A DNA stretch of 64,000 nt from Escallonia rubra (taxonomy: Eukaryota; Streptophyta; Magnoliopsida; Escalloniales; Escalloniaceae), in the NCBI GenBank assembly GCA_033065855.1, contig JAVXUO010000990.1:372001-436000 (forward strand), read 5' to 3'. Of this stretch, positions 15,272 to 52,640 are shown piece by piece (positions within the stretch are counted from its first letter, which is position 1; every line of letters starts with the position of its first letter). Under the pieces are notes generated by a model. It searched no databases. It was not told the origin of the DNA and worked only from the letters and a program-made list of their open reading frames with translations. The position numbers were made by a program, and so were the translations under genes.

Positions 15272-15415
15272 CTACATTTCGTCTAATAATTTGAGAAGGT
15301 AAAGGTAAAGATGCGTGTTTAAGAAGATATATATATCACCAGAAGAGAAATTGGAGAAAAGCTTATTAAAATATGGCAAAACATATTTTTCTAATCTTTC
15401 TTCGATACAAAAATA

Positions 15416-16039
15416 GGGTAAGTCAAGAGATGTGCCAATCAATTCAAAATGCGTACCTAACTCGTCAAGGTTGATGTCTTCCTTTCGATGCTTAAGGCTG
15501 ATTCTAAAAATCTTCCAAGAATGAGGCAACTTATTCATGATACATGTAACCACGATAAATTCATCCAAGACTAACTTGTGTTGGGAATAACGATCAAGAA
15601 TACTTTTAATCTCATTAAACTGTTCCATAACGGATCTACGAGCAACCATTTTGTAATAAATTTTTTTAGAAACGATGAACCTTTTACTGGTGGCATCCTC
15701 GGTGATGTAGCGACGCTCCAATTGGTTCCAAAGTTCCTTAGCGGTCTTGACAGTATGATAGGCATCGAACAACGTGTTGGACATGCCATTAAGAATATGT
15801 CCTCGACATATCTCATCATCTTGATCCCACCTCAATCTTTCACGTGTCTTCGCAACACTTTCCTCCTCATTTTCACCGGGTTCCGGAGGTCTTGGATTCA
15901 CGATCACATAGTACACTTTCACTGTTACTAGTAGAAAGTGCATCTTCCTTTGCCAACGAACGAAGTCCCCACCATCAAAACGCTCCAAGCGGTGGAAATC
16001 CGAGCCCATGTCTTTCAACGTCACGAACGCCATTGTTGC
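15416..16039 (-). pseudogene. Ty1/copia gag fragment
   Basis: The minus-strand frame beginning MAFVTLKDMGSDFHRLERF is a copia capsid protein of the UBN2/gag-polypeptide type. Typical blocks are FDGGDFVRWQRKM, a WDQDDEICRGHILNGM helix, and the AKELWNQLERRYITEDATSK segment near its middle. The frame stays open up to 16237 on the N-terminal side, which may be leader sequence. Recognisable gag stops near 15416. No zinc knuckle, protease, integrase or reverse transcriptase follows, so the element is truncated. Confidence 0.85.
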
Positions 16040-16396
16040 AAAATATAAACTTAAGATTGTTGGGGTATAGATTCGGTATGGCTTTGTGACTGAAAGAAGG
16101 ATCGGCTTCGAGGCACGTTGTAAAACGCTCTCCTTAAGTTTATATTTGCCCCCACCAAATAAAACGGTGTGCAGCGGGTTGCCGGCAAATATCCTCCAAG
16201 ATACAACGAAGCGCTTTAGTGAATAGCGTTTGCACACACGATATTCACCCCACAGATATGTGTATGGAATTCTGGATAACGAGTTTTACAAATAAGAAAT
16301 TCTGCAGAAATTTCTCGTTGTAAAAGATCTGCAGAAAAGAGATAAGTGAAAGGAGTAAAGGCTTTTCACCAGGTCCGAAAATTTGACTATTGTGCT

Positions 16397-21387: not shown

Positions 21388-24300
21388 TCACGTTGAATAA
21401 ATGATTTCACCTTCGCTGCACTCATCTACGTTGATTACCAGGGTGCCTTTCTTCTCCGATGGTAAGATGCTACAACAGTTTCTTCTAGGAGGCTGTTCAA
21501 AACACCAATCAAAAACTCGCTCAGCCTATTGTTAGCAACGCTATGATATAGATTTTACCGAAAACACAGACTTCAAAAGATTCAATGGGATAGACGGAGC
21601 TAAGCTATGCTTGTCATTCTCTCTCAGCACAACTATGATACCAAAAACTTGTGAAGCCAGAACATGTTAACTACGTTGTAACGAAAAAATAGTTATGATA
21701 CTCGAGCTTGGCACGTATCCTGCAACTTGAATTCGTGAGAAAGACGAGCGAGTTGCACATGTCGTAGAGCTCGTCCATTTACAGTTCAACACAGTATACA
21801 AAGTTAAGAACACGGTAATACTCATCCAGACGGACCAGACTAGACTTTTGTACAGATCAAGCAAAAATAGAAAAACTGGTATTTGCACTGCAGAAAAGCC
21901 AACCACGATCTTCCAAATACTCTACATAAGTAGCGGCATCTAAAGCATCTTGATTGTTCTTTGGAGTGCGTCTTGGCGACAGAAGTAAAAATCCTTTATG
22001 AAGTAGAAGAGGAATTAATTTACCTTGTCCCACATATTTGGGTTGGGCTTCTTGCGAACCTCCACTCTGTGAATCTGAGATGGATCAGCTTCCCCGCCCT
22101 TGCATTCTGAATACTCGGCCTTCTCAAAACGAACGTACTCACTAGCCGTCTGGTTAGTTGAAGGATTGTACAAGGCATTAGAGAGTAAGTACAACACGGG
22201 CCTTTCGCAAATACTATCACTAATGGGGCGTGAGTTGAACTCGAATCCAACTTGATCGGCATCAGGGTACCAATTGAGAAAAGTTCTTGCAGGCCTTTCG
22301 ATCAAACGGGCAGAGATTAGGCCCCTAAATAACTGGACCGCGTAGCCCCATGAGACTGATATGGTCCATTTCTTGGACTTATCGTAGCATATGGACTGTT
22401 GCATGAGGCCAGCTGAATCGAGCTTTGTCGGTACCTTGAGTCGTTGTAGGGCTTCGACCTGGTTCACGTAGGGGAATATCGGGTCGATCACGTCGAGGTG
22501 GTGTAGTGAGACTAGAGGTGCAATGGGGTGTGCTGCAAGAAGTCCAAAGACGTTGCCGTACACATCAAACTGGTAAAAAATGTAAGAAAATCATTAGGAG
22601 CAAATCCTCGTTCCAACTGTTACAAAAATGACGCGGCGCATTAGATAAACATGCATGATTTGACGATGTGAAAGGCTTGCATGCCTGAGTATTTTGCTGT
22701 TCAGTTAAATTTTCAGTGGTTTTCTAATATTGAACATTGGCTATGTAGTTTTCTATTGTATTTGTAGGCTCATCACGCACTTTTTCTAGATTCCAAAAAG
22801 TGGTATCCTAACAATGTTCGACTTGCTTTCATGTTCTTTGAGAAGGCCTTTATTTAACATCTTTTTGAAAGCATGAACACAAAAACAAAGCAAAGCCTGT
22901 TCACACGTACCCAAAGTTTCAATGAAAAAACAAAAGATTAAACCAAACAAGCACCTGGTTGATTTTTAAAGACTATAAAGCATACAATTCGAGTCCTAGC
23001 AAAAGCAATATTCAGGAAAAGTTTTAGTAGCTTCAGTAGCCAAAAATTGTGAGGCTTCTTGCTACAACAACGAAAATGGCAGCACTTATGCAGATTTTCC
23101 TCGCAACTACAGCATTCCTAGCTCTTGTTAGCGGATGCAACAAAGCATCGTTGCATTCTCTTTCGGTTAGTGCTTCCTCATCTTTATTAAGGGTGTGACT
23201 GCTGGCCTCTACGGGATAAAACAGCTGGCCTAAAGTACTAATTACTTATGGTTCAAATCACATATGAACTCATAAAATGTCATCCCAAGTACTGGTCTTT
23301 GAGGATGGGGAGTAGATATTTCTGCCACAAAAACCTCATACTACCTTGAAACAACGAAATTTCTGTTATTCTGAGACTTTCTGGGTTGAAGTTGCATCAA
23401 TCTGACTAAGCACTTAGCAAAGGCCTTAAGAACATGGAAGCATCTATCTCAGTAGCACTTCAAATAAATGCGTTTTGTGGCAAATACGAAAATTAAATAT
23501 AGCTGGACAGAGTCAATTCTACAATTTCCAAAGTAAAGACCCTGATGAGCCCTTCAGGTTTAAGATGCAAACCCACCCACTACCAGAATCATTCACATAA
23601 GTACAATGAACAGAAGGCTTTGACTATGCCATAGCAACAATGGAGGAAAATTGGAACTGCTTTTGATGAAAACCAATCCAAACAGAACACAGAGGGATAA
23701 ATGAGTAGATAAAGTGCAATAGGAGATATGAACCTGGTGAAACCCAATCTCCTTGGTGAGAGGAACTCCTAACTCAGCCATGCAAGCCTGAATCCGATCG
23801 TCCGACCCGTACAATTCCGGATACCGCTGTATACACTGGTCTTGCATCTTCGCAAGGGCTATAGCCAATGGGTAACTAATGGCAAAACCACCACCACCAT
23901 AAGCCATATTCGTCGAGAACTCTATATTCTGTATATGACTCTCCGATGAACTACCAATGTAATAAAATTGCTTATGGTCGTATTTTCTTAAGACCCTAAC
24001 CAGATTATCCACCACAAACACCGTGTCATCGTCCCCCAACACGATCCACCTCACATCCTCAATCCCTAGCTTCACGGTTTCCGAAACTATCCTCGATATA
24101 CGTATTGCAAATCTATCGCCGTTTTTGGGGGTGTACTTGAAAATCGAAGTGTCACTCGATATCTTGACCGGAGGAAGAGAATTTTCGTCCTCGGCATCGC
24201 GCTTCACGGGTTTATCTAACCATACAAAACCTCGGGTTTGGTTTTCCCTCCACCATGTTTTGATGTAGTCTTTCCTGTGCTCCCACAGCTTTGCGGAGGC

Positions 24301-24537
24301 CGCGACGCCAAAAACAACGTGGTGGAGCTGAGTTTCGTCCGAGGCTTGGGGTTTAGGGTTTTGAATGCGTTGTGTGTGGCCTATTTCCCTTTGTGGGGGT
24401 TGAAGAGACGGAATAAAACCTTTAGTGTATGAAAACAAGGGATACAAGTGAAAGGCGCATATAAGAGGGAGGAAGGCAAAGATGCAAGCGATAAATCTAA
24501 GCAAGACGACTCTTACAGGAGATCTAGGTTTTTCCAT
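21388..24537 (-). CDS. DUF604 / GT31 Fringe-related glycosyltransferase, 3 exons
   Basis: A type II Golgi membrane protein of the plant DUF604 family, which belongs to the Fringe/beta-1,3-galactosyltransferase clan. The donor and acceptor sugars are not known from sequence. Exons on the minus strand are 24537-23734, 22569-22024 and 21492-21388, all joined in phase 0, giving 484 aa, normal for the family. The start MEKPRSPVRVVLLRF gives a short basic cytosolic tail and a membrane anchor at about residues 9-30. Residues 72-98 hold the HHVVFGVAASAKLWEHRKDY block and 168-172 the GDDDT metal and nucleotide-sugar motif. YGGGGFAIS lies at 213-221 and GSDDRIQACMAELG at 244-257. The C-terminal half carries the DUF604 signature NWYPDADQVGFEFNSRP, then KKPNPNMWDK and a final PRRNCCSILPS block. 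No breaks were seen, so the gene looks functional. Confidence 0.93.
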
Positions 24538-25760
24538 GGTAGCTTCTAAATCTTTTTGGGCTGCCTTTTAAGGTATAAGCTAGGGTTTATGAGGGGTTCC
24601 ATCATTAGGATAACAGAACCCAAGACGGTACAAAGTCATGCAGGAGAACGAAGGAACAAGCCTAGGGTTAGAATAATTAGGTCTTGCATAGCTTTAATTA
24701 ATTCGCTCTCAAAGTTGTACTAGGAGGCAAGTTCCATAACTCACATAGAAGTCTTTTCTTCTTTAACTACTCCTAGGTTTTCTTTATTAATCCTTACCAA
24801 AACCAGACATTGTTAGTTTCGAATAGGGATAAATTGACATAAATCCCGCCAAAAGTTATTTTTGGCGGTGGCGGTTTTCAGTAATTTCACTCCCACAAAA
24901 GTTTTACAGCCCCTTGGAAACATTGTATCCCAGTTAGAATTGGTTTCATCTTGGGAGAAAAAGACCAGACGTACGTGTAGTCAAAACGACACACATTCCA
25001 CAGGAAGATGTTGCTAGGCTTTCGAAAGAAATATATTTACAACCATACTTTATGCTTAGTTTTGCGATCAGCAAACTTAGATTAGGTTGGTTTAGATGCA
25101 TAAACTTTTGCTTATGGCGAAATATTTGGTATCATCAAACGTGTAAACTTGACATCTACCTTGCGATTTGAAGCAGAGCAGTGCTACTCGTTTTCTAATA
25201 TTTGTCTTTTAAAATTAGAATCATAAAATGTTATGTCCATGTTAAGGTGCCACATTGATTATATATGAAAATTGGCTTCGGTTCTTGTACCTCATTCGAA
25301 GCATATTTTTGTGTTGGATACCAGCCTGTAAAATAGTATCAGATCGAGTTAGGCCAAGCCTATAACATGTAGTCTTCGGGTCGCTTTCTCGTCCCTTCAA
25401 TCTGAGGCTATGTGTGAGGGTGGTTATTAAAGTCCTTACATGACTATACATTGGAATTAAATTTGATTTTTATGCTTGGTGAGCTTCTCCTCCTCCTGCA
25501 CTTGTTCAATATGTTACGTCCAACAGCTTTTAAAGCTTTTCGACCACGAGTAGCTTGGTCCCTCTTCAAACGGTTGTGTTGTGTGGCCAAAATCTAATCA
25601 TTATGTATATCATATGATATATGTTCCATTTGGTCACAACCGGGGCTGCTGATGCATGCAACTTTACATTTGAGGCATTGATAACTTTTTATTGCCGGTA
25701 GAAGATATGTAAAGGATAGTGAATCATCTAATAAAGTGCAAGTCGAGGTTTCATATTATC
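24538..25760. other. GT31 upstream region and intergenic
   Basis: The first 300 bp should hold the GT31 promoter and 5' UTR. The rest is AT-rich with no recognised gene. Confidence 0.4.
24846..24868. promoter_or_regulatory. Inverted pair of E2F-like sites forming a 9-bp stem
   Basis: CCGCCAAAA and TTTTGGCGG are exact inverted copies with a 5-nt spacer. Each contains TTTGGCGG on one strand, which fits the plant E2F consensus WTTSSCSS. The pair is about 310 bp upstream of the GT31 start codon. Function is inferred only. Confidence 0.35.
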
Positions 25761-28912: not shown

Positions 28913-29062
28913 CATAGTTATGAAAACCGTACCGGAGTGTATACCGTTTTTTTCGTAAAATGATACGTACTGGTACTGGTATCGTCTCAGTACCGCCTCA
29001 AAATTTTCATCAAGAATTTACATTTGTAATATTCACGCATACAACAGTGACATTAGAAACAA

Positions 29063-30617
29063 GGGTTAATTACAAAATTGTCCCCTGTGTCTTACACGTT
29101 TTTGCACTTTGCTCCCCGTGTTTACAACTTTTGCAATACTGTTCCCTGAGGTTGACAAAATCATTGCAAACGACTCCAAAGCCCAACGTCCATCCAAAAT
29201 AGCTGTTAAAATAGTCACGTGCCTGTCATGTGCCACTTTTTTGACTAAAGTAAAGGGCAAAATTGTAACTTTAGTAAAAAAAAAGTCCATCATCTTCATC
29301 TGGGTGGACTCCATGTTGAAGACTCCCATCGTCATTCTCTTCACAAGCCAACCCGACAAGGAGCACAGACTCCACCAGCCACCTTGATTGGGACTCCCAG
29401 TCATGGTCGCCAGAATGTCAAGCACCGACGACCCGTAGATCGCCACCGGAATCTGACGTAACACGCTCTTCTTCAGCCCCGCCGCAGCCAAACGCGTCGC
29501 CGTCTGCACAACAGACGATGGAGTTTAGACCAAGAGCGCATATCAGGGCACACAACAGGGCTGCAAGGATGATCACCATATTGGTATATAAGTTTGCCTC
29601 GCTGGTGTAGGACCCACGTGTTTTGGCTGCATGACTAGGCGGTGGAGGAGAAGGCAGCGATGATGCTGGTTCTGTGTTGAGGAGTAGGCGTTGCTGGTAG
29701 AGATTCATGGTATCGTACAGTGTCTTTCACCAACTCAGAAAAACCGAACCCAAAACGAGCTAGGTCAGGATTTTTCTACCATAGTGATTGCCAGGAACGG
29801 GAATTATGCAAAAAGGCTAGAGATTTCATCGCTCCACATCACAATTCAGCAGCAAATCGTACCACAAAGGAGATTGAAAATAGTGACTTCATCTTGGGTT
29901 TCTTAATTCCTTATGAAAGGAAAAGGGAGCGGGGGTGGTTGTGGGTGGGGACTTGTGATTTGTTTGGTTAATAGATTCCAACAGCTAGAATTTAAAGCAT
30001 GTTGGTCACTATGATGAGATCGATGAGGCATGTTCCCTATATTTGGAAGTTTCAGCTGTAGTGCTAACCTTTGTATATGGGCACAATTTCCTTCCTTGGG
30101 AAATTGAATCCTTTCTTCCTCAGGCTGACAAAAAACTAACCAAAACCAGGCAAAACTCTGATGCAGATGGAAGGAGCATTTATGGACACACCACAGACTT
30201 CTGCAACTGCTAAAAACTTCCAAATCCAGGTACTCAAAAAGTTGATTTCCTGATGCAAGAGGAGATTGGTTTGTGTTAAATGGAATCATCCATTTTCATA
30301 TTATAGTTTGCTTCGGTGGAGCTGGGTCGTTCTTTGAAATTGCGGCACAGAAGAGTAGCTGGGTTCCATTTCCCGAATGAAGATGAAGATGATTGACTTT
30401 TTTTTTACTAAAGTTACAATTTTGCCCTTTACTTTAATAAAAAAAGTGGCACATGATAGACATGACTATTTTAACGGCTATTTTGGACGGACGTTGGGTT
30501 TTGGAGTCGTTTGCAATGGTTTTGTCAACCTCATGGGACAGTATTGCAAAAGTTGTAAACACGAGGAACAAAGTGCAAAAACGTGTAAATCATAAGGGAC
30601 AGTTTTTTAATTAACCC
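29063..30617. mobile_element. Mutator-like element with captured gene fragment (Pack-MULE type)
   Basis: Terminal inverted repeats of about 239 and 237 bp (29063-29301 and 30381-30617) start GGGTTAATTA and run through TTACACGTTTTTGCAC to CATCTTCATCT. The element is flanked by a perfect 9-bp duplication TAGAAACAA (29054-29062 and 30618-30626), the hallmark of Mutator-like elements. The 1.08-kb interior has no transposase but carries a piece of an ATL RING-H2 gene. Long inverted repeats, the 9-bp duplication and host gene sequence together define a Pack-MULE. Confidence 0.9.
29402..29708 (-). pseudogene. Captured ATL-type RING-H2 E3 ligase fragment
   Basis: On the minus strand the fragment opens with an ATG and [20 protein letters not shown]. 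It then carries the ATL membrane anchor [18 protein letters not shown] and continues NSIV. It resumes in another frame with [19 protein letters not shown] and YGS, the GLD-type region that precedes the RING in ATL ligases. The frame change falls at a TGTTGTGCAG/ACGG site that could be read as a splice acceptor. The fragment stops at the left inverted repeat, and the RING-H2 domain itself is absent. It is a captured, non-functional N-terminal half of an ATL gene. Confidence 0.8.
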
Positions 30618-30898
30618 TAGAAACAAATAGCTTATTCAATTGAATTACTTCCTCTAGGATTATCCCCTTTTTCAACGATCTCATTCGCAAATTTTTATGT
30701 AAGAATAAGTTTTTTGTTCAATAATAACGCCTTTAGGTTCAAGAATAAGCTGTTTTGTGTGTGTGCATGTGCGCGAGCGTGCATGTGTGTAAAGCACTAT
30801 ATTATATAGATGAAAGAATATGATAAAAACTTACAATTATGAATTTGATAACTCAATTCAGCACTTAGAACTGAAAGTTTTCAATGGTTTAAAATTAA

Positions 30899-33015
30899 GT
30901 GCGTTTGATAACGTACTTTTTTTAGCACTTAAAATAATAAGTGATACGTAAGATAAAGAGCAATATTTTAAGTCACTCATGACTAACTTATCACTTATCA
31001 CTTAAAGCGCTCAATGATTTCTCGTTAAACAATTTTCCCCTAACAGATTAATCTGCCCTCCCTCGTCCTTATCTGCCTCTTTTTCTTCCCCCTATTCTTC
31101 CCGATCGATCGTTCCGCAACCTCTTCTTCTTCTTCTCCCCTGAAGCGATCTCTTCTCATAGCACTCCAACCTTAATTGCAGGTTTGTAATTTCTTTCTTA
31201 TCATGGTGCTTGTGAATGTAATTAGGGCTTTTTTTTTTCATTTGTTTTTTGCGATATTGATAGATCGCTTGCTTTGTGAATGTAATTAGCTTCATAAATA
31301 TGATCTTGGCAAAGTCACACACAACACTAGAATCTGAATATACCTAGAAAGGGAAAACCCTAGATTTGGATAACCAGATGGTGGTCGCCTTCACAAGCTA
31401 TGGAAAACAAAATGTTTGATTCACTTAATCAATCGCAATTCACTAATCAATAAGGCTGTTTTGTGGAAAATTTCAATGCACTGAATTTTGGACTGTGGAG
31501 AGTTTTTGGAGTATGTGGAGACTTTTGGAGAATTTGAGTATTGCAAAATAGCTCTTCGCAAAAGTGCTTGCAATGATAGGAGCCCCACTAGGTTGCTTCT
31601 TTTATCTAAGAAAGACCGGAGAAACCCTAAAATTGAATCACAAGCTCATCTGAGTAGCTAACCCTACATCAGTTGGGGTATTTAACATTCCATAACGAAA
31701 GCTAGGAGTGTGAGGCTTAGGTTTTTTATTGGGTTCTTTGAGTTGAGCAGTACTCTCATGCGCAGTAGCTCCTGCCTTTCCCACTTTTACAATTGTAATA
31801 TGTATTTGTATAACATGCTTTCAAGTGCAAGAGTTGAAAAAAAAATGTGAAAGAAGGTAACAGCATCATGTAGTTAACAACACTATCCTGCTGCTATAGG
31901 CATATCTTGAATTAGTGTGTTTATGTATTGCTTTAAGTTGTCGGGAAATTACCCAAGACCACGACTAGCTGATTCAGATTACAAGGAATGTGTTGAATGA
32001 AGCAAATATGTGCCAAGTTGTAAAATTTTTTTGGAACTTTATCAAACTACTTCCTCAGATTGGTGCTTGAGTATGTAATATTGAACCATGCACAAGTCTA
32101 GATATATTTTGCTCTTGTAGTAACTCTAATTGCTAGACCTTTGGAGAAATTGATGCATGTAGACCATTGGGGTTGATTAGGTTTAGTGAATTTGGTTATC
32201 TAACGGTGTTTTACTTTACGGGAAGTTTGGGGAAATATGGTCAATGGCAAATGCCATTGATTCTATACTTTAAATTATCTTTTATCATCAAAAATCTTAG
32301 CAACACCTTTAAAACTCATTACCGACACTTTTCCTATTTTGAATTCCAAAAGCTTAGACCTTTAACCTTTTATAGTAGTATCTAATGTTGTAGTACTTGT
32401 ATCGGAATGGCTTCTAGTGACGGTTCTAGAGCAAACTGGAAGGATCCAGAATTATATAAATTTTTCATAGATGCATGCCTTGTAGAAGCATCGGAAGGTG
32501 GAAAGGCTGGGATATGGGAGCAGAAGCACGACAAGCTGATCAAAATTTTATGGTGAACTTACGGGAGCAGATTGCAACTCAATTGTTTAATTTGAGGTTG
32601 TAATCGATATATGTAATACTGTGACTTTTGACTATCAAAACATTATTGCAATTCTTATGGTGTGACTGATTTCAATTTTTTTATTATTTTGTGTTTTAAG
32701 GCTATGCTCATGATTGTAAATTTTGGATTTGAAGTATCCTTCATTGATATCGTAATACGCCCAATTATCCAATTGTTTAACAAGCTTGTTAAAGTTTCAA
32801 AAAACAGAGTAAAAGGGTATTATTGTCAAATTATACAGTTTTCAGACTTCAGTTATTCTCTTTTATCAAACATAATATTACTGATTCAGTACTTAAATTT
32901 CAGACAGGACCAAATTTTTTCAGTACTTAATATTCAGCAGCTTAAAATTTTCAGTTATACAAATTCAGCACTTTAAGTCTTCAGCACTTAAATTTCAGTT
33001 TTATCAAACAGCCCC
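30899..33015. mobile_element. PIF/Harbinger-type element, non-autonomous
   Basis: The left end GTGCGTTTGATAA and the right end, on the other strand, GGGGCTGTTTGATAA form imperfect inverted repeats. Both are flanked by TAA (30896-30898 and 33016-33018). Sub-terminal copies of TTCAGCACTTAA-like words are frequent near the right end. A small MYB/SANT-like frame lies inside, which fits the second gene of Harbinger elements. No DDE transposase was found, so it is a deletion derivative. Confidence 0.6.
32407..32556 (+). pseudogene. MYB/SANT-like ORF fragment, 49 aa
   Basis: The frame opens MASSDGSRANWKDPELYKFF and continues IDACLVEASEGGKAG, the start of the plant Myb/SANT-like DNA-binding domain (Myb_DNA-bind_3) found in PIF/Harbinger partner proteins and in L10-interacting MYB-like proteins. 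It then runs into KLIKILW and a stop, well short of a full domain. It is too short for the tracked frames but clear by eye. Confidence 0.6.
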
Positions 33016-33454
33016 TAAGTGAAGATTGATAGCTTAACTTACCAGGAAAGATTTTACAAATTATAATGAATATTATGAGTAATAGGCTATAGAAGCTTTG
33101 ATTCGTATAATAGAACTTAGAGTGTTTTTCTATTTAGTTTTTGATGCCGAGGAAAGTGGGTTCATACCTACGTGGAGGTGCCACAAAGACTGCAGTCCGA
33201 GTCAGCTTCCAAGTATGTTGATGTGAGACACAGCAAGGGTGGAACAACAGCAGAGACCAAGGGCTTCCCAGACAGAGCCTGAGGGTGGCAGTGCTGTGAG
33301 GGCGATAACGCGGGATGAATACACGATGACAGTCACAGTCCGATGCTTAGGTCCAAAGTCAAGGTCCTGTATGTTTCTCTCTCTAGGATTCTAGAGTGAG
33401 AAAGTGAAAATGTGAGAGTGAAGAAGAAGTCCTCCAAATGAATTCTCAAGACCT

Positions 33455-33463
33455 CTATTTATA
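33455..33463 (-). promoter_or_regulatory. TATA box of solo gypsy LTR
   Basis: TATAAATAG on the minus strand, in the same place relative to the LTR 3' end as the boxes at 40517 and 51928. Confidence 0.7.
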
Positions 33464-34485
33464 GAGATTGAGATAATGATGTCATAAACCGACACGTGGT
33501 GTTCCCCGGGAGTGACACGTCACCGGGGGGGGGGGGGTCCACGGGTACCGGCACTCCATGGACTGTCAGATCGCATATTCACCTGGCCTGCCCCGCACAA
33601 CGTTGCTCCGTCTGTCAGCAAAGACTGGCTCCCACCGCATCGGTGTGGCCAGAGAACCCCCTTGATCTAGCCTCCAATCCAAGGCTTTATAGAGTCCCAC
33701 AGGCCTGGCAGCGGTGGGGAAGACCCGACGCCCAACTGCCAGGTGAACTAGGCGCGATGCCCTCCGAAGACCTGCTCCCGTCTCGGAGTGACCCGGGGGT
33801 CATAGTCCCTAGGGGTGCCGACGCAAACCCCCAGTGCCGGAGCACGTAGGCCAGTCACGCAGGCACCCTGACGGAGATAGTGTCCCGGAGGAGTCGCCTA
33901 TTCCACAACGAGGTAGCATCCCAGAGGAGCCATCTACCTGGCCGGCCGAGGTAGCATCCCGGAGGAGCCTTCTACCTGGCAGAAATGGAGTCTTCATGCC
34001 GGAGCACTTAGAGCTCCCTGACACAGGTAGTGTCTCGGAGGAGTCGTCTATCCCCGCGGGTGAGTCCTTGTGCCGGAGCACTCAGAGCACGTCAAGGTAG
34101 CATCCCGGAGGAGCCGTCTACCTGGCAGAAGGGGAGTTGAAGAGCTCCTTGGCGGAGATAGTGTCCCGGAGGAGTCGCCTATCCCCGCAGGATGATGTAC
34201 ACTCTGGAGAGTGGGTTGAAGCATGTTCCACGACCAAGGCAAGGTGCGCATGGTGTGGTGAATGAGTGTGGTGCCCGGGGGGGGATGTAACATGATTGTG
34301 GTGTATGGGCACGATGAAGTGAGTAAGGTGCCGGGGGCACGTCTGTGTTAGTGGCGCGACGGAGTGCGTATGGTGCCGAGGGCATGGTAGTGTGACAGAG
34401 AGCCTGGGGGCACGGCGGTATCAACATCGCGGTGCAAGGGCGCGGTGGAGTGTTAAAGTGCGACACCCGGACACCGGCGACGGGG

Positions 34486-34724
34486 TCACGGAGTTGTGTC
34501 CGGGCGACGTGGGTCGTGGAGTTGTGTCCGCGCGACGGGGGTCGCGGAGTTGTGTCCGCGCGACGGGGGTCGCGGAGTTGTGTCCGGGCGACAGGGTCGC
34601 GGAGTTGTGTCCGGGTGACCGGGGTCGCGGAGTTGTGTCCAGGCGATGGGGTCGCGGAGTTGTGTCTGGGGACGGGGGTCGCGGAGTTGTGTGTGGGCGA
34701 TGGGGGTCGCGGAGTTATGTATGG
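34486..34724. repeat. Nine-copy tandem array of a 26-29-bp unit
   Basis: GTCGCGGAGTTGTGTCC followed by a variable GGGCGAC-like tail is repeated about nine times within the solo LTR. The same unit is present but far more diverged at 38100-38720 and 50200-50620. Confidence 0.9.
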
Positions 34725-35354
34725 TCCCTTGAAGAGAAGTGAATGTGCTAAGGATGGAGGCCAAAGGCCAACCCTTCGGGGAAGGCCAAGGCCAACCTCA
34801 TGGGGAGGCCGAGGCCGACCCCAAGGGGAAGGCCAAGGCCGAGGCCGACCCCAAGGGGGAGGCCAAGGCCAACCTCCTTGGGCAAGTGCCATGGCGCATC
34901 GACGGGCGACGTGCGACGGTCGAAGCGTGATAAGGCTTCGTGCGAAAATGAGCTTCTTAGTGACGAAGTAACGTGACGAAAGTGAGAAGTGCACGTGACT
35001 TGAGCGTGCATGCTTTGACCGGTTGTGAGCGTTGAAAATGACTGTTGCTTGTGCGGACGTGTCATGCAAAATGGGACCACAGTGGGCCTTTGGGTACGAC
35101 CAGAATAGGTTGGGAACAGTCTTTATATTTTCAATTTATAAAATTTCTAACAAAATTTGTTACCTTTATATTTTTTAAAGAACCGGTATAAAACACAATA
35201 ATTCGACCGTTATGTAGTTCTCGGGCAGTATCACCTGTACCGGCCGGTACAACCGGTACAGAGCGGTATTTTGGCCTATAAAAAATGTAAGGGATACCGC
35301 ACCAGTAGAAGACAAAAGCGGTACGTACCGACCAGTACGATATTGATAACTATG

Positions 35355-37748: not shown

Positions 37749-39662
37749 TGTTCCCAACCTATCTTGGCCGTACCCATGGACCCACTGGGAGTCCCATTTT
37801 GCACAACATGTCGGCACAAGCAACAATCAATATTCAACGCTTCCAACCAGTCAAAACATGCACGCTCAAGTCACGTGCACTTTTCACTTTTTGTACGTTA
37901 CTATGTCACTAAGAAAATCACACGTCACACGTCAAAACCGTCGTATGTCGCACGTCGCTCGTTGGCACGCCTTGACACTTGTCCAAGGAGGTTGGCCTTG
38001 GCCTTCCCCTTGGGGTCGGCCTCGGCCTTCCCTTAGGGTTTTCCTTGGCCTCCCCCTAAGGGTTGGCCTTGGCCTTCCCCCAAAGGTTGACCATGCATCG
38101 TCCGCGACACCCATCGCCCACATCCGCGCATCAACTCCGCGACACTCGTCAACCGCATCGCCCCTTCGCCAGGGCACCGTCTCCACAACCCTCGTCTCCC
38201 GTGCCTGTGCGTCGACTCCGCGACGCTCGTCGTCCTTCACCCGGACGCCGTGTCCGTGACGCTCGTCGCCCATCACCCACCCATCGCCCTCACCCGCATG
38301 CCGACTCCACGATGCTCATCGACTGTCACCCCGACGCCATCTCTGCGATGCTCATTGGCCATCGCCCGGATGCCATCTCCACGAACCCCGTCGCCCGCGC
38401 TTGTGAGTCGATTCTGTGACGCTCGTCGCCCATCACCAACCCCCATCGCCCGCGCCTGAGCACCGACTCTACAAAACTCATCGATCGTCGCCCGAACGCC
38501 GTCTCTGCGACGCTTATGACTTGTCCCCCGGGCATTGTCTCTGTGACCCCCGTCGTCAGCGCCCGCTATCCTACTCGATGGCGTTCGTCGCCCGTTGCCT
38601 AGGCGCCATCTTCGCGATGCTTGTCGCCCATGGCCCAGGCACCGTCTCCACGACGCCCATGTCTAGTGCCCGCGCGCCGTCTCCGCGACCTCATCGTTGG
38701 CGCCCTCGTCCCCGGTGCCCGCGCATCGCACTCCAACACTCCGCCCTGCCACTGATATTGTCGTGCTCCTAGGCTTTCTGTCACACTATCGTGCCCCTAT
38801 CACCTCACTCACTCCGCCACGCCCACGCACCGCACCACTGATACAGTCGCCCCCATCGCTCTTTGTCACATTATCGTGCCCCCGACACTTCACATACTCT
38901 GACGCGCCCATGCACCGCGCTGCTGATACATTCGCGCCCCCAAGCTCTCTGTCATACCCTTATCATTGACGCCCTCATTATCGGTGCCCGTGCACCGTAC
39001 TCCATTACGCTGCCCTGCCGCTGATACCGCCGTGCCCCTAGGCTCTCTGTCACACTATCGTGCCCCCGTCACCTCACTCACTCCACCGCGCCCACACGCC
39101 ATACCACTGATACAGTCCCCCTGGCTCTTTGTCACATTATAGTGCTCCCGACACTTCACATACTCATCCGCACCCATGCGCCGCGCCGCTGATCCCCAGG
39201 CTCTCTGTCACACTATTGTGCCCCCGGCACCTCACTCACTCTGACGTGCCCGCGCTTTATGCCACTGATACAGTCGCGCCCCATGGCTCTTGGTCACATT
39301 ACCATGCCCCCGACACTTCACATACTCCATCGCACCCATGCGTCGCGCCGTGAATACAGCCGCCACCCTAGGCTCTCTGTCACACTATCGTGCCCCCGAC
39401 ACCTCACTCAATCCATCGCGCCCATACGCCACGCCACTGATACAGTCGCACCTCAGATTCTCAATCACACTACTGTGCCCCTGGCACCATACACACTCCG
39501 CCGTCCCCATGCGTTGCGCCGCTGATATAGTAGTGCCCCTAGCTCTCTGTCACACTACCACGCTTCTTGCGTTGGTCCATCCTTTCAAGACACCATGCGC
39601 AACTTGCCTTGGTCGTGGAACATGCTTTGACCCACTCTCCGGAGTGTGCATCATCCCACGGT

Positions 39663-40110
39663 GATAGGCGATTCTTCCAGGACACTATCTCCACCAGGGA
39701 GCTTTTCAACTCCCCTTCCGCCAGGTAGACGGCTCCTCCGGGATACTACCTCGGCCAGTCAGGTAGACGGCTCCTCCGGGTAGACAGCACAAGGACTCAC
39801 CTACGGGGATAGGCGACTCTTTTAGGACACTATCTCCATCATGGAGCTTTTCAACTCCCCTTCCGTTAGGTAGACGGCTCCTCCGGGATGCTTCTTCGAC
39901 CCATCAGGTAGACGAATTCTCCGAGATGCTACCTTGATGAGCTCCTAGTGCTCCGGCACAAGGCTCACCCGCGGGTAGGCGACTCCTTCAGACACTATCT
40001 CCTTCATGGAGCTCTAAGTGCTCCGGCACAAAGACTCCCTTTCCACCAGGTAGACGGCTCCTCCGGGATGCTACCTCGGCCCGTGGAATAGGCAACTCCT
40101 TCGGGACATT
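39663..40110 (+). repeat. Alternating GATAG..CTATC / GGTAG..CTACC hairpin units
   Basis: Units such as 39663-39689 (GATAG ... CTATC) and 39724-39750 (GGTAG ... CTACC) share a core close to CTCCTCCGGGA. The two unit types alternate. The second base of each arm differs between types but stays paired. The same alternation is seen at 33875-34195 on the other strand and 51220-51540. Confidence 0.7.
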
Positions 40111-40516
40111 ATCTTCGCTAGGGTGACTGCGTGACTGTCCTACGTGCTCCAACACTGGGGGCTTCATCAGCACCCTAGGGACTATGACTCCCGGGTCACT
40201 CCGAGACTGGAGCAGGTCTCCGAAGGGCATCGCGCCTAGTTCGCCTGGCAGTTGAGCATCATGTCTTCCCTACCGTTGCCAGGTCGGTGGGACTCTGCAA
40301 GGGTTTGGATTGGTAGCTAGATCAAGGGGGTTCTCTGGCCACACTGACGCTGTACGAGCCAGTCTTTCCAGACAGACAGAGCGACGCTGTGAGGAGCAGG
40401 CTGGGTGAATATACAATCCGACAGTTCGTGGAGCACAGACACCTGTGGACCCCTCAGTGACGTGTCATTCCTGGGGAGTGCCACGTGTCTGTTGATGACA
40501 TAATCATCTTAACCTC

Positions 40517-40525
40517 TATAAATAG
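40517..40525 (+). promoter_or_regulatory. TATA box of 5' giant LTR
   Basis: TATAAATAG about 300 bp before the LTR end. A 16-bp perfect palindrome CTCTAGAATTCTAGAG (40573-40588) lies about 50 bp downstream, inside the likely transcript start region. Confidence 0.75.
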
Positions 40526-40816
40526 GAGTCTTGAGAATTCATTTAGGGGACTTCAGTATTTTCACTTTCTCACTCTAGAATTCTAGAGAGAGAAACATAC
40601 TGTTTTGACTTTGGACATAAGCATCAGACTGTGACTGTCGTTGTGTATTTATCCTGCGTCATTGTCCTCGCAGCACTGCCACCCTCAGGCTCTGTCTGAA
40701 AAGCCCTTGGTCTGCCCTTGCTGTGTCCCACATCAGCACACTAGGCATCTGACTCGGACTGCATTCCTTGTGGCATCTCCACGTCGACTGTGAACCCATT
40801 TTCCTTGGCATCATTT

Positions 40817-42497: not shown

Positions 42498-42944
42498 GTG
42501 CGGGACCTGTGCCCTATCCGCCCAAGCCCTGGCCTCCCTAGTGCATTTTCCACACTTGTAATTTTTTTCTTTCCTACACTTTGCAAGTTTTAATGTGCTC
42601 AATCCCATGTACCAAGGCATGTTGCCTACTTTTGCTATCAATAAAGTTATATTTTTCCAGACTTAGACACTTTTCAAGCTACATTGCTCTTGCACAAGTC
42701 TACTAACACCACCCTTGATACCATCACCCACTCCCTTGGGGGCTTCACCCCTTCCCTACCCCAAGTAGGCCAGGTTCCCCTCCCCTCTCCGTCTCACATT
42801 GCAAAATGACTTGGTAGGTGGTGCGCGGGGTGGCTCGAGCCATGCTACCTAAGTCTCGACTCAGTCAGCCGACATTCTTCCAGGCCTCGCGACTGACCTT
42901 GCCAGGTAAGCCCGTAACACGCTCGCCAGCCTTACCCGACTTCT
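42498..42944 (+). other. Non-coding internal region of gypsy element, left part
   Basis: No pol-like coding sequence. It contains GTAGGTGGTGCGCGGGGTGG and a CTCGAGCC motif (about 42811-42850), which recur at about 49553-49590. The nested copia element starts at 42945 after the CTTCT target. Confidence 0.6.
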
Positions 42945-43417
42945 TATAAAGGAATATACTAGGTTTCGCACCAAGCAATAAAGAAGAGAATTGAAAAAAA
43001 TAATAGAAAATAGAGACACAAGATTTACGTGGTTCGGCGAAAGCCTACTCCACGATGGTAGCAACGATTTCACTATGTTTTTCACTAGAAATTACAGACC
43101 TTTGTCTCTCTCAACAAACCCTCTCAAAGAATGACTCATCTCTTTTCAAGAAAGACTTTTCCTACTCAAAGAAGGACTCTGCTCTCTTGTTTCAAAGAAA
43201 GATTCTTCCTACTCAAAGATGACTCTTCTCTCTTTTCTCTTATACTTAAAACACAATACAAGACAACATATATATACTTAGAGATAAGTAGTGACTTTCT
43301 CTAAATAATCAATGTGGGACAAGACTTATATACTTAGGTCCAAGTCACAATCTTCTTTGAATAACCGATGTGAGACGCCCACACATTCTGGGTTTTTATC
43401 CAAGACACATTATCACA
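42945..43417 (-). repeat. 3' LTR of nested copia element
   Basis: Same length as the 47508-47980 copy, with scattered substitutions and small compensating indels in an AAGAAAGACT/CCTACTCAAAG repeat zone. Confidence 0.9.
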
Positions 43418-43505
43418 AATCTCCACCTTGGCTTGGATAAAACAAGCCACAAACAATCTGAAAATATCATCTGCTGTTACCACACCTGCCCCCTAGGGCT
43501 GCACC

Positions 43506-43844
43506 TCAAATACTGCTGATACTGATCAAATCTAAGCAATGCTTAAACTTGATCTCTGGAATATGCTCTGTCATCATGTCCGCTAGATTTTCAACTGTGG
43601 AAATCTTCTCTACCATAACGGTACCCTGAGAAACCACATCCCGAATAAAATGAAACCTGACATCAAAGTGCTTGGTCCGCTCATGGAATATCTGATTTTT
43701 GGTCAAATGTATGGCAGTTTGGCTATCACAGTAAACGGTGCTAGACTCATGCTTCAATCCCAAATCACCAACCAAGCCCTTTAACCAAATAGCTTCCTTC
43801 ACTGATTCGGTCGCTGCTATGTACTCAGCTTCTGTAGTAGACAA
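43506..43844 (-). pseudogene. Nested copia RNase H
   Basis: [20 protein letters not shown] and [20 protein letters not shown] are the two conserved RNase H blocks of copia elements. The frame is cut off from the RT part by a stop just after CVISWKATL (about 43857). Confidence 0.9.
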
Positions 43845-43856
43845 GGCAACACTAGT

Positions 43857-45017
43857 CTAAAGAGTAGCCTTCCAACTGATCACACAACTCAAAAAAGTAA
43901 AGATATATCCTGTCAAAGATCTCTTCCTATCCAAATCTCCAGCGTAGTCTGAATCCACATATCCAATAACACTACCATTCGCATTACTGCCCCGATGGTA
44001 GACTAAACCAGTATCTGCAGTACCTATCAGATATCGAAGTATCCATTTCACTGCCTGCCAATGAGCTTTCCCAGGATTACCCATGTACCTGCTAACCACA
44101 CTGACTACATGAGAAATATCCGGTCTCGTACAAACAATAGCATACATGAGACTGCCCACTGCACTAGCATATGGAACACACGCCATGTGCTCCACCTTCT
44201 CCTGGGTCTGTGGGGAATCAGTTGCTGAAAGCTTGAAGTGTGCCACTAAAGGAGTAGTCACAGGTTTAGAGTTTTTCATACCAAAGCGCTGCAGTACTCG
44301 CTCAATGTACTTTTTCTGGGACAAGTACAAAATTCCTGCAGGTCTATCCCTCTGAATCTCCATCCTTAATATCCTCTTTGCTGCACCCAAGTCTTTCATC
44401 TCAAATTCCCTTTTCAACTGCTCTTTTAAACTGTTGACATCTGACATTGATTTTGCAGCAATCAACATGTCATCAACATACACCAACAAGTATATATGAG
44501 AACCATCTGTGAGCCTCTGGTGATACACACAACTGTCATACGCACTCCTGGTGTAACCTCTCTCTGCCATGAAAGTGTCGAACCATTTATACCACTGCCT
44601 TGGAGATTGTTTTAATCCATAAAAGGATTTATTCAACAAGCAAACATGATCTTCCTTATATTGGATCACGAATTCCTCTGGTTGACGCATGAATATCTGT
44701 TCTTCCAACTCACCGTGTAGAAAAGCTGTCTTGACATCCAGCTGTTCTAACTCCAAGTCATATAGAGAAACCATATCAAGCAGCACTCTTATCGAAATAT
44801 GTTTTACTACAGGAGAAAATATTTCATTGTAATCAATACCTTCTCTCTGAGTAAAACCCTTAGCTACCAAGCGTGCTTTATACCTTGCATCTTCCATTCC
44901 AAGAATTCCATCCTTCTTCTTGTAGACCCATTTGCAACCAACATTCTTTTGGCCCATAGGCGGTTTCACCAATTCCCACGTTTGATTTTTGTAAAGAGCT
45001 AGATTCCATCTCCTCAC
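43857..45017 (-). pseudogene. Nested copia reverse transcriptase
   Basis: A 386-codon open stretch with the copia RT blocks. ARYKARLVAKGFTQREGIDY comes first, then QLDVKTAFLHGELEEQIFM, then NKSFYGLKQSPRQWYKWF, and the active site YVDDM with the aspartate pair intact. Upstream (45017-45242) the reading shifts frame, and a stop at its other end separates it from RNase H. Confidence 0.93.
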
Positions 45018-45243
45018 TCATAGCAACTGTCCACTGCGCTGATTCCGTGCTCTTGATGGCCTCTTTGTATGTAACAGGCTCTTTAACCTCAATACTCTTT
45101 GCCACACTAAGAGCATAAGCACCCATGTCCGCATATCCATACTTCTGAGGAGGTCGAATTTCTCTTCTCGGTATGTTTCTGGCAATGTTATACTGCTGTT
45201 CCTGAGGTTCTTCATTCTCCTTGGTAGAAAAAGAACCATCATC

Positions 45244-46692
45244 CTAATCTGTAGGAATTAGCGGCAAAGAATCTGGAGCTTGAACCTCTAGCTCCACCTT
45301 CTCCCTGACACCGTGGTCTTTTCCCGCATCAATCAACTCCTTTTTCTTCGAAAGCATCAAAGACTCATCAAAGGTCACATCTCTGCTAATTAGGAACCTG
45401 GAAGACTTAGAATCAGGACACCATAACCGGTACCCTTTTACCCCATTTGCATAGCCTAAGAAAATGCACTTCTTTGCTCTTGGTTCAAGTTTATCATCAT
45501 TAACATGAGCATAAGCAAGACAACCAAATATCCTCAAAATTTCATAATTAGCATGCTTACCGGACCAAACTTCTTCAGGAGTCTTGCAATCAATTGTAGT
45601 CGATGAAGACCTATTTACCAAATATACAGCTGTGTTAACAGCTTCTGCCCAAAATTCCTTCGATAACCTGACGTTTGAAAGCATACATCGAGCCTTCTCA
45701 AGGAGAGTCATATTCATCCGTTATGCAACCCCATTCTGCTGTGGCGTTTTTCTAACAGTGTGATGCCTCATTATGCCTTCATTCTTGCAGAACTTAGTAA
45801 ACTCATCCAAGCAGAATTACATGCCATTGTCAGTCCTTAAGCATTTAATTTCTTTGCCAGTTTGTTTTTCAATCATCATCTTAAACTGCTTCTACTGAAC
45901 AAAGACATCATTCTTCTTTTTCAAGATGTACACCCAGACCTTTCTTGAAAAGTCATCAATAAAGGTCAACATATATCTGCCACCACCTTTAGAAGGAACT
46001 GTGGAAGGACCCCAAAGATCTGAATGTATATAATCCATCGTACCTATGGTGGTATGAACAACCCGACTGAATTTTACCCTGCACTGCTTCCCGAAGACAC
46101 AATGCTCACAAAAATCCAGCTTCCCGATTTTCTTGCTTCCCAGCAAATCTTGTTTGCTTAGCACATAAATATCCATCTCACTCATATGCCCAAGACGCAT
46201 ATGCCAAAGCTTGGTAGTGTTAGAATCTATATCAGAAGATAAAGTTGTTGCTGCTGCTCCTGTAACTGTGCTACCTTGTAACAAATAAATACTATTTTGT
46301 TTTAACCCCTTCATCACAACAAGAGAACCCTTCATTATCCTCATAACTCTACCTGTAGCCCGATAGCTATAACCATTGGAGTCAAGCGTACCCAAAGAAA
46401 TCAAAATTTTCCTCAGATCTGGAACGTGCCTGACATCAGTTAAAGTTCTCACAATACCATCATGCATCATAATCTGAATTGAACCTATCCCTACCATCTT
46501 ACAGGCGACATCGTTTCCCATAAAGACTTTACCACCATCAAATGAGCGATAAGTGGCAAACCAATCCCTATTGGGACACATATGATAGGAGAAACCCGTA
46601 TCAAGAATCCACCCTCCATCTGAGGAACTAATAGTAACTGAGAGAACATCTGCACCATCAGAATTATCTTCTGCTACTCCAGCATTAGCCAT
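45244..46692 (-). pseudogene. Nested copia protease and integrase
   Basis: The protease site reads DTGFSYHM (copia enzymes have D-S/T-G). The GAG-pre-integrase block LWHMRLGHMSEMDIY and the zinc-binding CEHC follow, then the integrase core start DLWGPSTVPS. Three in-frame stops interrupt the core: one at 45892, one after RTDNGM, and one after QQNGVA. The distal part (45717-45244) has FWAEAVNTAVYLVNRSSS, FGCLAYAHV and CIFLGYANGVKGYRLW. Confidence 0.9.
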
Positions 46693-47460
46693 CTTGGAAT
46701 TGTCTTTTTTTCCCTTTACGCTCAGGATAATCTTTTATGTAATGCCTTTCCTTGTGACAATGATAGCACTTCAATTTTCTGGTCTTTGACTGAGACCTCG
46801 ATCTTCCTTTATTTCTAGACCCAGCATGGTCAATGCTTTGGCCTCGAGCCATCAGACCATCACTATGTTCTTCTCCCCTATTTTCTGAAACCTTATTCCT
46901 TAATTCCTGAGAATTTATCACAGTCTCAACCTCCTCCGTGGAGATACTGTCCTTCCCATATAATAAGGTAATAACAAGATGTTCGTATGACGGAGGTAAA
47001 GAACACAACAATAGTAAAAATTTATCCTCATCTTCTATCTTGATATCAATATTTTGCAGGTCTAATATTACCTTGTTATATTCATCAAGATGATCACTGA
47101 TCGATGTACCTTCTTTCATCCGAAGATTATACAGCCGTTGCTTTAAATACAGGAGATTTTTTAGAGACTTCGTCATGTATAAGCTCTCCAATTTCAGCCA
47201 TAATCCAGCTGCAGTCATTTCCTAAGAAACCTTTCGCAACACGTTGTCGGCTAAACACAACAACAGGGCACTATGGGCTCTCTCCAACATGTCTTCTTTT
47301 TCATCATTAGACATCGTATCAGGAAGCCCTTGTTTCCCCTTTAACGCTTTCAACAACCCTTACTGAATTAAAATAGCACGCATATTTATCCTCCAAAAAC
47401 TGAATCGTTCGATCCATCAAACTTCTCCACATCACACTTCGTCGAAGTATTTGGCGTCAT
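46685..47460 (-). pseudogene. Nested copia gag
   Basis: The start is at 47460 (MTPNTSTKCDVEKFDGS). A frameshift and stops follow within 250 bp, and the reading then runs MTAAGLWLKLESLYMTKSL to the zinc knuckle CYHCHKERHYIKDY. The last ligand of the CX2CX4HX4C knuckle is tyrosine and the glycine before the histidine is arginine, so RNA binding would be lost. Confidence 0.88.
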
Positions 47461-47507
47461 TGCAAGGTACTTTCAATCTACCACTGAACCTCAGCTCTGA
47501 TACCATT

Positions 47508-47980
47508 TATAGATAAATATACTAGATTATGCACCAAGCAATAAAGAAAAGAATTGAAAACAATAACAGAAAATAGAGACATAAGATTTACGTGGTTCGG
47601 CGAAAGCCTACTCCACGGTGGTAGCATCGATTTCACTATATTTTTCACTGAAGATTACAGACCTTTGTCTCTCTCAACAAACCCTCTCAAAGAATGACTC
47701 ATCTCTGTTCAAGAAAGACTTTTCCTACTCAAAGAAGGACTCTTCTCTCTTGTCCCTTCAAAGAAAGACTCTTCCTACTCAAAGAAGAACTCTTATCTCT
47801 TTTCCCTTGTACAACACAATACAAGACAACATATATATACTTAGAGATAAGTAGTGACTTTCTATAAATAACCAATGTGGGACAAGACTTATATACTTAG
47901 GTCCAAATCACAATCTTCTTTGAATAACCGATGTGGGACACCCACACATTCTGAGTTTTTATCCAAGACACATTATCACA
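47508..47980 (-). repeat. 5' LTR of nested copia element
   Basis: A 473-bp LTR adjoining the Met-tRNA primer-binding site. It ends CTAGTATATTTATCTATA on the minus strand. Confidence 0.9.
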
Positions 47981-48374
47981 CTTCTGGACTCAGCCGGTCG
48001 TCAATGTCAGCCTGTCATCCTAAGCACCTAACTCCTTCCTCCCTCTCACCCTGCCTACTCGCGGTCGGGTCACCACCATTCATCTGCCTCCCTCAGCACC
48101 CTTTCCTGAGCTTCATTCTCCCCTTTTTGAGACTTAGAAAAAATTTATCCAAAAAACAAAAAAATTCGTTTATGTAACCACCATCCCCCTCACCCTCTCT
48201 CCAACACTTAGAAAAATTTTCAACATTTTCATCTCATCTCTCACCATCGGAGACTCTATCCCTCTTTCCCCACTGTATATGCAACTTCCATATCTCTCTC
48301 TCTCATAGGATAATTATAATTCATCACCCTAAACCTATCCTTCTATCTTCTTCCTTGTTGCAAAAAAAAATCAA

Positions 48375-49600: not shown

Positions 49601-52238
49601 CGTTCAGTGATGATCGACGCCCGGGCACTAACTCCGCGATCCCTATCACCCGCGCTCGTTCACCGACACTTCGACGTTCGTCACCCACGCCCGCGTGCCG
49701 ATGATCGTGACTGTGCCCCTGTGCCCCATCATCATGTTACCATGTCGACACACAAGCATTCCAACCGATCAAAACATGCACGCTCAAGTCACGTGCACTT
49801 TTTACTTTTTCTACATTACTTCATCACTAAGAAATTCGCACGTCGACACCGTCGCATGTCGCTCATCACCGCGCCTTGGCACTTGCCCAAGGAGGTTGGC
49901 CTTGGCCTTCCCCTTAGGGTCGGCCGCGACCTTGGCCTTCCTCTTGGGGTCGGCCTTCCCCTTGAGGTCGGCCTCAGCCTCGGCCTTTCCCTTGAGGTCG
50001 ACCTCGGCCTCGGCCTTCCCCTTGGGGTCGGCCTCGGCCTCCCCTTGGGGATCGGCGTTGACTTTCACTTGGGTTTGGCCTTGGCCTCCCCCTAAGCGTT
50101 GGCCTTGGCCTTCCCCAAAGAGGGGGCCTTGGCCTTCCCCCATGGATTGGCCTTTGCCCCCCCTTAGCACCTTCAATACTCTTCAAAGGACCATGCATCG
50201 TCCGTGACACCCATCGCCCGTGTTCGTGCTCCAATTTCGCGACATTCGTCGCTTGTCGCCCAAGCACCGTCTATGCAAAACTCGACACCCACCTTCTGGG
50301 CGTCATCTCTGCGACACTCGTCGCCCATCGCCCGGACGCCGTCTCAGCAACGCTCGTCGCCGGTAACCTGGGTACCGTCTTCATGACCCCTGTCACCCGA
50401 GCTCACATGCCGACTCCGTCACGCTCATCGACCGTCGCCCGGACGCCATCTCCGTGATGCTTGTCGCCCGTCACCAGGGCACCATTTTTGCGAACCACAT
50501 CGCCAGCGCCTGCCCACTGACTCCGCGATGCTCGTCGCCCAGGAGCCATCTCCGTGACGCCCATCGCCCGCACGCCGTCTTCGAGACCCTCATTGCTGGA
50601 ACCCGTGAGCTGCACTCCAACACTCCGCCACGCCGCCGATAGAGCTGCGCCCCCAGGTTCTCTATCATACTATCGTGCCCTCGGCACCTCATTTATTCTG
50701 CTATGCCCACGCGCCGTGCCACTGATACAGTCGCGCCCCATGGCTCTTTGTCACATTATTGTTCCCCCGGCACTTCACATACTCCGCTGTGCCCATGCAT
50801 CGTGCCGCTGATACAGCCACGCCCTCAGGCTCTATCACAGTCTCACACTTTCGTGCCTCCGATACCTCACTCACTCTACCACGCCCGCACGCTGTGCCGC
50901 TGATACAGTTGGGCCCCATGGCTCTCTGTCACATTACCGTGTCCCTGGAACTTCACATACTCCGCCGCGCCCATGCGTCGCGCTGCTGATACAGCCGCGC
51001 CCCCAGGCTCTCGGTCACACTATCGTGCCCCCGGCACCATACACACTCCGACGTGCCCATGCGCGGCATTGCTGATACAGTCATGCCCCCTGGATTTCTG
51101 TCACACTATCATACTCCTTGCATTGGTCCATTCTTTCACCACACCGGGTGCAACTTGTCTTGGTCGTGGAACATGCTTCGACCCACTCTTCGGAGTTGGC
51201 AGCATCCCGCGGGGATATGTGACTCTTCCGAGACACTATGTCTGCCAGAGAGCTTTTTAACTCCTCTTCTGCCAGGAAGACGGCTTCTCTAGGATGCTAC
51301 CTTGGCCCATCGGGTAGACGTCTCCTCCGGGATGTTACCTTGCCGCGTTTCGAGTGCTTCGGCATAAGGACTCACCTGCGGGGATATGCAACTCCTCCAG
51401 GACACTATCTCCGCCAGGGAGCTCTAAGTGATATGACACGAAGACTCCCCTTCTGCCAGGTAGACAGCTCATCATGGATGCTACCTCGGCCCACGGAATA
51501 GGCGACTCCTCCGGGACACTATCTCTGCCAGGGTGTTTGTGTGCTTGGCCTACGTGCTTCGGCACTGGGGGTTCATCAACACCCCTAGGGATTATGACCC
51601 CCCGAGTCACTCCGAGACGAGAGCAGGTCTCCAGAGGGCATCGAGCCTAGTTCGCCTAGCAGTTAGGCGTCGGGTCTTCCCCACCGTTGCCAAGTCTGTA
51701 GGACTCTACAAGGGCTTGGATTTGTGGCTAGATCAAGGGGGTTCTCTGCCCACACCGACGCTGTGCGAGCCAATCTTTCCAGACAGACAGAGGGAGGCTG
51801 TGAGGAGCAGACCGGGTGAATATGCGATCCAACGGTCTGTGGAGCACCGGCACCACTGGACCCCTCGATGACGTGTCACTCCCGGGGAACGCCACGTGTC
51901 AGTTGATGACTTCATCATCTCAACCTCTATAAATAGGGGTCTTGAGAATTCATTAAGGGACTTCTGCATTTTCACTTTCTCACTCTAGAATTCTAGAGAG
52001 ACAAATATACATGACCTTGATTCTGGACATCAGCATCGGACTGTGACTGTAGTCGTGTATTTACTCTGCGCCATTGTCCTCACAGCACTGTCACCCTCAG
52101 GCTCTGTCTGGGAAGCCCTTGGTCTCTGCCCTTGCTCCACCCTTGCTGTGTCCCACATCAGCACACTTGGCATCTGACTTGGACTGCCTTCCTCGTGGCA
52201 CCTCAACGTCGACTGCGAACCCATTTTCCTTGACATCA
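49601..52238 (+). repeat. 3' giant LTR, left end eroded
   Basis: It has the same order of zones as the 5' LTR: GCACGCTCAAGTCACGTGCA at about 49780, a GGCCTTGGCC array (49890-50160), and a CGTCGCC array (50200-50620). A roughly 110-bp array (50620-51120), hairpin units (51220-51540), TATAAATAG (51928-51936) and the end TTGACATCA follow. The first 60 bp of the 5' LTR (from TGTTCCCAACC) have no match here, so the left border is uncertain. Confidence 0.75.
51928..51936 (+). promoter_or_regulatory. TATA box of 3' giant LTR
   Basis: TATAAATAG, with the same CTCTAGAATTCTAGAG palindrome about 50 bp downstream as in the 5' LTR. Confidence 0.75.
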
Positions 52239-52640
52239 CATTCTCTTCCTTCTAGCACATGTGGCGTTCTGAAGACACTTACTGATTTTCTTGAATCGGA
52301 TGAGCTAATGGATTTTTTGCAATGTCTTAATCCCTCATACGGGGTTGTGCGAAGCCAAATTATTTTAACAGATCCCCTACCCTTAATTAACAAAGCTTAT
52401 TCTCTCTTGCTTCAAGAAGAAAAGCAACACTCCCTGACATATTTTTGGCCATCTCTTCCTCAACAGGCTACTATGGCTTCACAATGCTCATTTTTTACTC
52501 CTACTCCACCTTCGCAATCATAATTCCGAGCTACCAACATCCGTCCTCACTATCATTGTTCACATTGTTGCATGAATGGTCATTCCGAGTCTTGTTGTTA
52601 CAAGAAAAATGGATACCCTTCTTGGTGGAATAGTCGTGGC
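52239..52640 (+). pseudogene. Outer copia gag, second part, with zinc knuckle
   Basis: The reading resumes after the gypsy insertion as LKTLTDFLESDELMDFLQCL and NPSYGVVRSQIILTD. The CCHC knuckle (52557-52598) reads CSHCCMNGHSESCC and keeps all four ligands. Frame changes are needed between these blocks. Confidence 0.8.

Follow-up and report, generated by a model that had tools for sequence, protein, structure and literature searches.

The stretch of Escallonia rubra DNA analysed here (the window, 64,000 nucleotides) contains, at 29063–30617, an element of 1,555 bp that is very probably a Pack-MULE carrying the 5' fragment of an ATL gene. This high probability applies to the core claim; a capture from several host loci and an old capture in an ancestor are variants within it, and their odds overlap with its own. 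The pickup of gene fragments by transposons, which leaves a broken fragment at a new site, is a well-known type of event. The first-pass annotation had also read the element as a Pack-MULE. Its non-autonomous, MULE-like anatomy with an ATL 5' fragment stands, whereas the chimeric capture and the fairly recent move that it added are not supported. The span of the element was obtained by reading the sequence directly and by aligning its two arms, and the features are as follows:

29054–29062, no strand: left target-site duplication (TSD), TAGAAACAA, with the same letters as 30618–30626
29063–29301, plus strand: left terminal inverted repeat (TIR), 239 bp, with the tip GGGTTAATTA, pairing with the right arm
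29302–29404, minus strand: stretch of about 103 bp from the TIR to the point where the ATL match ceases to be recognisable, two residues short of the first RING Cys of the reference
29405–29518, minus strand: second ATL piece in a shifted frame, the post-anchor/GLD-like region up to the RING edge (tblastn 31.6 bits)
29418–29708, minus strand: open reading frame of 96 codons that opens at the ATL start codon; its first ~64 residues comprise the N terminus and membrane anchor, and ~31 residues out of frame follow (hydropathy; tblastn 55.5 bits)
29709–30380, minus strand: AT-richer interior segment, best read as the captured 5' flank of the gene (G+C 0.41 against 0.55 downstream; no Pfam family above the cut-off in the scanned readings)
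30381–30617, minus strand: right TIR, 237 bp, pairing with the left arm
30618–30626, no strand: right TSD, TAGAAACAA, with the same letters as 29054–29062

Boundaries and class of the element

The ends of the element are defined by a pair of long inverted repeats and a short duplication outside them. In a pairwise alignment of the arms, 218 of the 237 aligned bases are identical (92%), with one additional 2-bp gap, and both arms start with the same tip. A separate repeat search recovered both arms, split into two neighbouring pairs whose ends were off by about 1 base. The duplication is identical in all nine positions and abuts both TIR tips on the outer side. A perfect 9-bp match would arise by chance at one given pair of positions with a probability of approximately 9e-6. 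The minus-strand self-match of the 2.7-kb region holding the element scored 336 bits, compared with 41.9 bits for the best of 100 base shuffles. When 46 overlapping 2.7-kb sections were compared, covering the window up to its last 549 bases, the next best section reached 52.7 bits. Inverted pairs of equal or greater length occur more than 5 kb apart, between copies of dispersed repeats (for example, 281 nt, 84%, 6.4 kb apart), and none has the spacing of the element. The TIRs have no further match in the 64-kb window. The inverted repeats of 237–239 bp and the perfect 9-bp duplication, both reported by the first-pass annotation, are borne out by these results.

In the part of the literature on tomato Pack-MULEs used here, MULEs are described as having TSDs of 9–11 bp and TIRs of typically 100–500 bp, and Pack-MULEs as non-autonomous MULEs that hold genes or gene fragments (PMC3310237). 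The arms of 239 and 237 bp and the 9-bp duplication at their tips lie within these ranges, and the TIRs probably belong to a MULE. A transposase was looked for by scanning with Pfam all 10 stop-to-stop readings of at least 70 aa inside the element, two of which were read from the first ATG. None of the 10 contained a family above the cut-off; therefore, no transposase can be recognised and the element is non-autonomous, as is expected of a Pack-MULE. Several matches below the Pfam cut-off were set aside. These were PRIMA1 (17.3 bits, with a cut-off of 38.6), DUF6264, AAR2_1st, SPOB_a, PSMD12-CSN4_N, DUF1679, and Rep_4, the last in a reading that extends across the left edge of the element. Rfam at gathering scores and a search for tRNA and tmRNA gave no hits in the window, and two TIR patterns had no exact match in viral contigs.

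The ATL-like fragment

The ATL-type piece lies on the minus strand, from its ATG at 29708 to approximately 29405. A single putative ATL74-like protein served as the reference and was used as the tblastn query. We provisionally take ATL74-like to be the nearest type of the captured gene. The two tblastn scores given above are modest, but the best of 50 shuffled queries reached 25.8 bits. The open reading frame contains a hydrophobic stretch of 19 residues with a mean Kyte-Doolittle value of 2.67, which corresponds to the N-terminal membrane helix of ATL proteins. Near 29515–29500, the reading shifts its frame, and the ATL piece in the next frame comprises 27 residues and ends near 29405. The position of the GLD motif, in this shifted frame, reads GLK. 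According to the part of PMC3161093 used here, the modules of ATL proteins are arranged in the order of N terminus, membrane helix, spacer, GLD motif, spacer, and RING-H2. The N terminus, the membrane helix, and the GLD-like region of the element follow one another on one strand in the same order.

The RING-H2 domain was not found in the element, whether by six-frame translation of the interior, with the RING part of the query, or with Pfam. Elsewhere in the window, the RING part of the query scored up to 22.7 bits, which is under the shuffled best. The first RING cysteine of the query would come two residues past the last matched residue, at the point where the element diverges. The modules that precede the RING are present and the RING is missing; therefore, the fragment is the 5' part of a gene, broken by a frameshift. 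In comparison with ATL RING-H2 ubiquitin ligases, it has the N terminus, the membrane anchor, and the post-anchor region in common, but it is frameshifted, stops before the RING, and has no C terminus. The interior had earlier been described as holding the start codon, membrane anchor, and GLD-type region of an ATL gene but no RING. The start codon, the anchor, and the missing RING are confirmed. The ATL reading does not stay in one open frame, and its GLD-like region has an altered motif. The fragment itself is not recognised by Pfam, and a literature search for printed ATL peptides of this type found none.

The origin of this arrangement can be envisaged in a few steps. A MULE would have taken up, between its ends, a copy of the 5' portion of a host gene, presumably at a parental ATL locus. 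The captured piece would most likely have been contiguous, consisting of the 5' flank and the first coding part and stopping just short of RING-H2. The element would then have been mobilised by a transposase supplied in trans, leaving the 9-bp duplication. Because the ATL fragment is without a RING, it is not expected to encode an E3 ligase. The fragment is most likely a decaying passenger, and at most it could give rise to a 96-residue membrane peptide or to small RNAs against the parent. It is very improbable that the element, equipped with an ATL promoter, N terminus, and anchor, dampens the parental ATL ligase by serving as a mobile source, under ATL regulation, of a membrane peptide lacking the RING, or of small RNAs derived from its long inverted repeats.

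Protein-level searches with the ATL reading yielded one match that had to be judged. Among 178 pattern-matched stretches in bacterial and archaeal genomes, a single one was confirmed, in Bradyrhizobium, with 47% identity over residues 65–96 of the 96-aa reading and an E value of 2e-6 that is relative to the candidates only. After rescoring, it had 33.5 bits, whereas 50 shuffled tails reached 21.2 bits at most, and the underlying DNA match spans 33 bp (30/33 bases). The match was judged to be due to chance, since it is confined to the out-of-frame tail and came from a pattern search of a very large collection. In viral contigs, the first 64 residues of the reading gave 34 pattern matches, none of which was confirmed, and solved structures gave no match at E up to 1.

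Age of the insertion and source of the interior

The divergence between the two TIRs is K2P 0.090 (14 transitions and 6 transversions in 238 columns). For comparison, K2P is 0.065 (470 columns) between the two LTRs of a Copia element in the window, and LTRs are identical at insertion. TIRs need not start identical, and for this reason their K2P value sets no more than an upper limit on age. The perfect TSD gives little information on dating because, at 8% divergence, nine positions would survive intact approximately half of the time (0.92^9). The fairly recent move suggested by the first-pass annotation is therefore not supported. The divergence of the arms and the broken ATL frame are compatible with greater age, and it is possible, if rather unlikely, that the interior was captured in an ancestor that was later amplified, the present copy having captured nothing itself. 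Amplified Pack-MULE families do exist (described in part of PMC3310237), but no second copy of the element was found in the 64-kb window.

A further question is whether the interior came from one host locus or from two. As the ATL fragment reads leftwards, the segment at 29709–30380 adjoins its start codon on the upstream side, in the place of the gene's own leader and promoter. Within the interior, G+C content has its best single change point at 29697, and the ATL ATG is 11 bp away. It was equalled in 0 of 500 shuffles and is the only significant change of composition in the interior. No second step was significant, as the best one upstream of the ATG was reached in 292 of 500 shuffles and the best one on the coding side in 444 of 500. 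This evidence is suggestive only, because bootstrapping places the step within a broad range (29546–29907). The contiguous capture of an ATL 5' flank together with the start of the coding region is favoured over two sources by these sequence features but not proven, as a junction of two captured pieces near the ATG would give the same picture.

We consider it unlikely that the Pack-MULE is chimeric, with the ATL piece and the segment at 29709–30380 (perhaps also 29302–29404) taken from different host loci. The difference in G+C between the two parts points in this direction, as does the stretch at 29302–29404, which does not extend the ATL reading. Additionally, there are four ATGs within the 200 bases before the ATL start codon, which is unusual for a 5' leader; a TATAAA or TATATA box was not found upstream of the ATG within the interior. 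Rice Pack-MULEs and maize Pack-TYPE elements are reported, in the part of PMC8903248 used here, to have captured sequence from several loci. Nevertheless, the step in composition falls where a natural gene may have one, and no further step accompanies it. The chimeric capture that was originally proposed is disfavoured by this position and by the 5'-flank location of the segment. Possible plus-strand splice sites at ~30040–30380, seen by eye, were dropped as they gave no continuous reading.

Almost no credence can be given to the idea that the region is the remnant of a real ATL gene in place, with the two inverted repeats as separate insertions: the ATL piece does open with a start codon, and the DNA upstream of it looks non-coding, but the inverted repeats form a pair of ends and share a single duplication that flanks them on the outside, and with the ATL74-like query nothing in the window matches the RING or the C terminus better than the shuffled best.

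Known Pack-MULEs and neighbouring features

The element resembles the Pack-MULEs of rice, tomato, maize, and Arabidopsis in its long TIRs, its 9-bp TSD, the lack of a recognisable transposase, and the gene fragment inside. Nothing is clearly different from them; the captured gene here is ATL-like. The length of 1,555 bp is somewhat greater than that of the commonest class of tomato Pack-MULEs, 1.0–1.2 kb, given in the part of PMC3310237 used here. The tomato Pack-MULE PM-ZIBP likewise has MULE TIRs around a piece of a host gene, and the identity of its outer TIRs is 87–94% in four rows of Table 5 of the same source (PMC3310237). Tandem TIRs are present in 13 of 14 PM-ZIBP copies (PMC3310237), whereas a single TIR is found at each end of the element described here. 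For MULE genes in rice relatives, an origin from GC-rich parents is reported in the portion of PMC4858842 used here, where earlier work is cited for this. The element fits the known kind of Pack-MULE and has no unusual feature. Among the titles listed in a literature search, none was of a paper on a Pack-MULE with an ATL fragment, which is not a claim that none exists.

If the reading as a Pack-MULE is correct, this is one more clear case of a ubiquitin-ligase gene partly duplicated by a plant transposon. The finding is of use in annotation, where the fragment could pass for a gene. Greater weight would come only with expression or with small RNAs that target the parent.

Other mobile and repeated sequences occur in the window, whose gene and transposon content points to a plant host. 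Immediately to the right of the MULE, a stretch at ~30891–33017 that runs from a 'gtttgataac' start to a ttatcaaacagccc end was noticed by eye and is possibly another DNA transposon. A reading from 32407 had a Myb/SANT-like look by eye, but Pfam gave nothing at E up to 1 in 32410–32556. The Copia-type LTR retrotransposon lies at ~42944–47985 on the minus strand and contains RVT_2, Pol_BBD, and gag_pre-integrs. A Copia-type gag reading at 15272–16285 (Retrotran_gag_2, E 1.3e-23) is separate from this 43–48 kb element. A dispersed repeat family is represented by several copies in both orientations (~33125–35040, 37830–40813, 49750–52240, and 56490–58660), and GC-rich tandem arrays with units of 24–30 bp and ~81–86 bp are found in or near these copies. 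Host genes are present as well. Two minus-strand readings at 22015–24567 belong to a DUF604/Fringe-like gene, and a reading at 2905–4209 contains Cnd1_N of condensin complex subunit 1 (E 3.2e-7).
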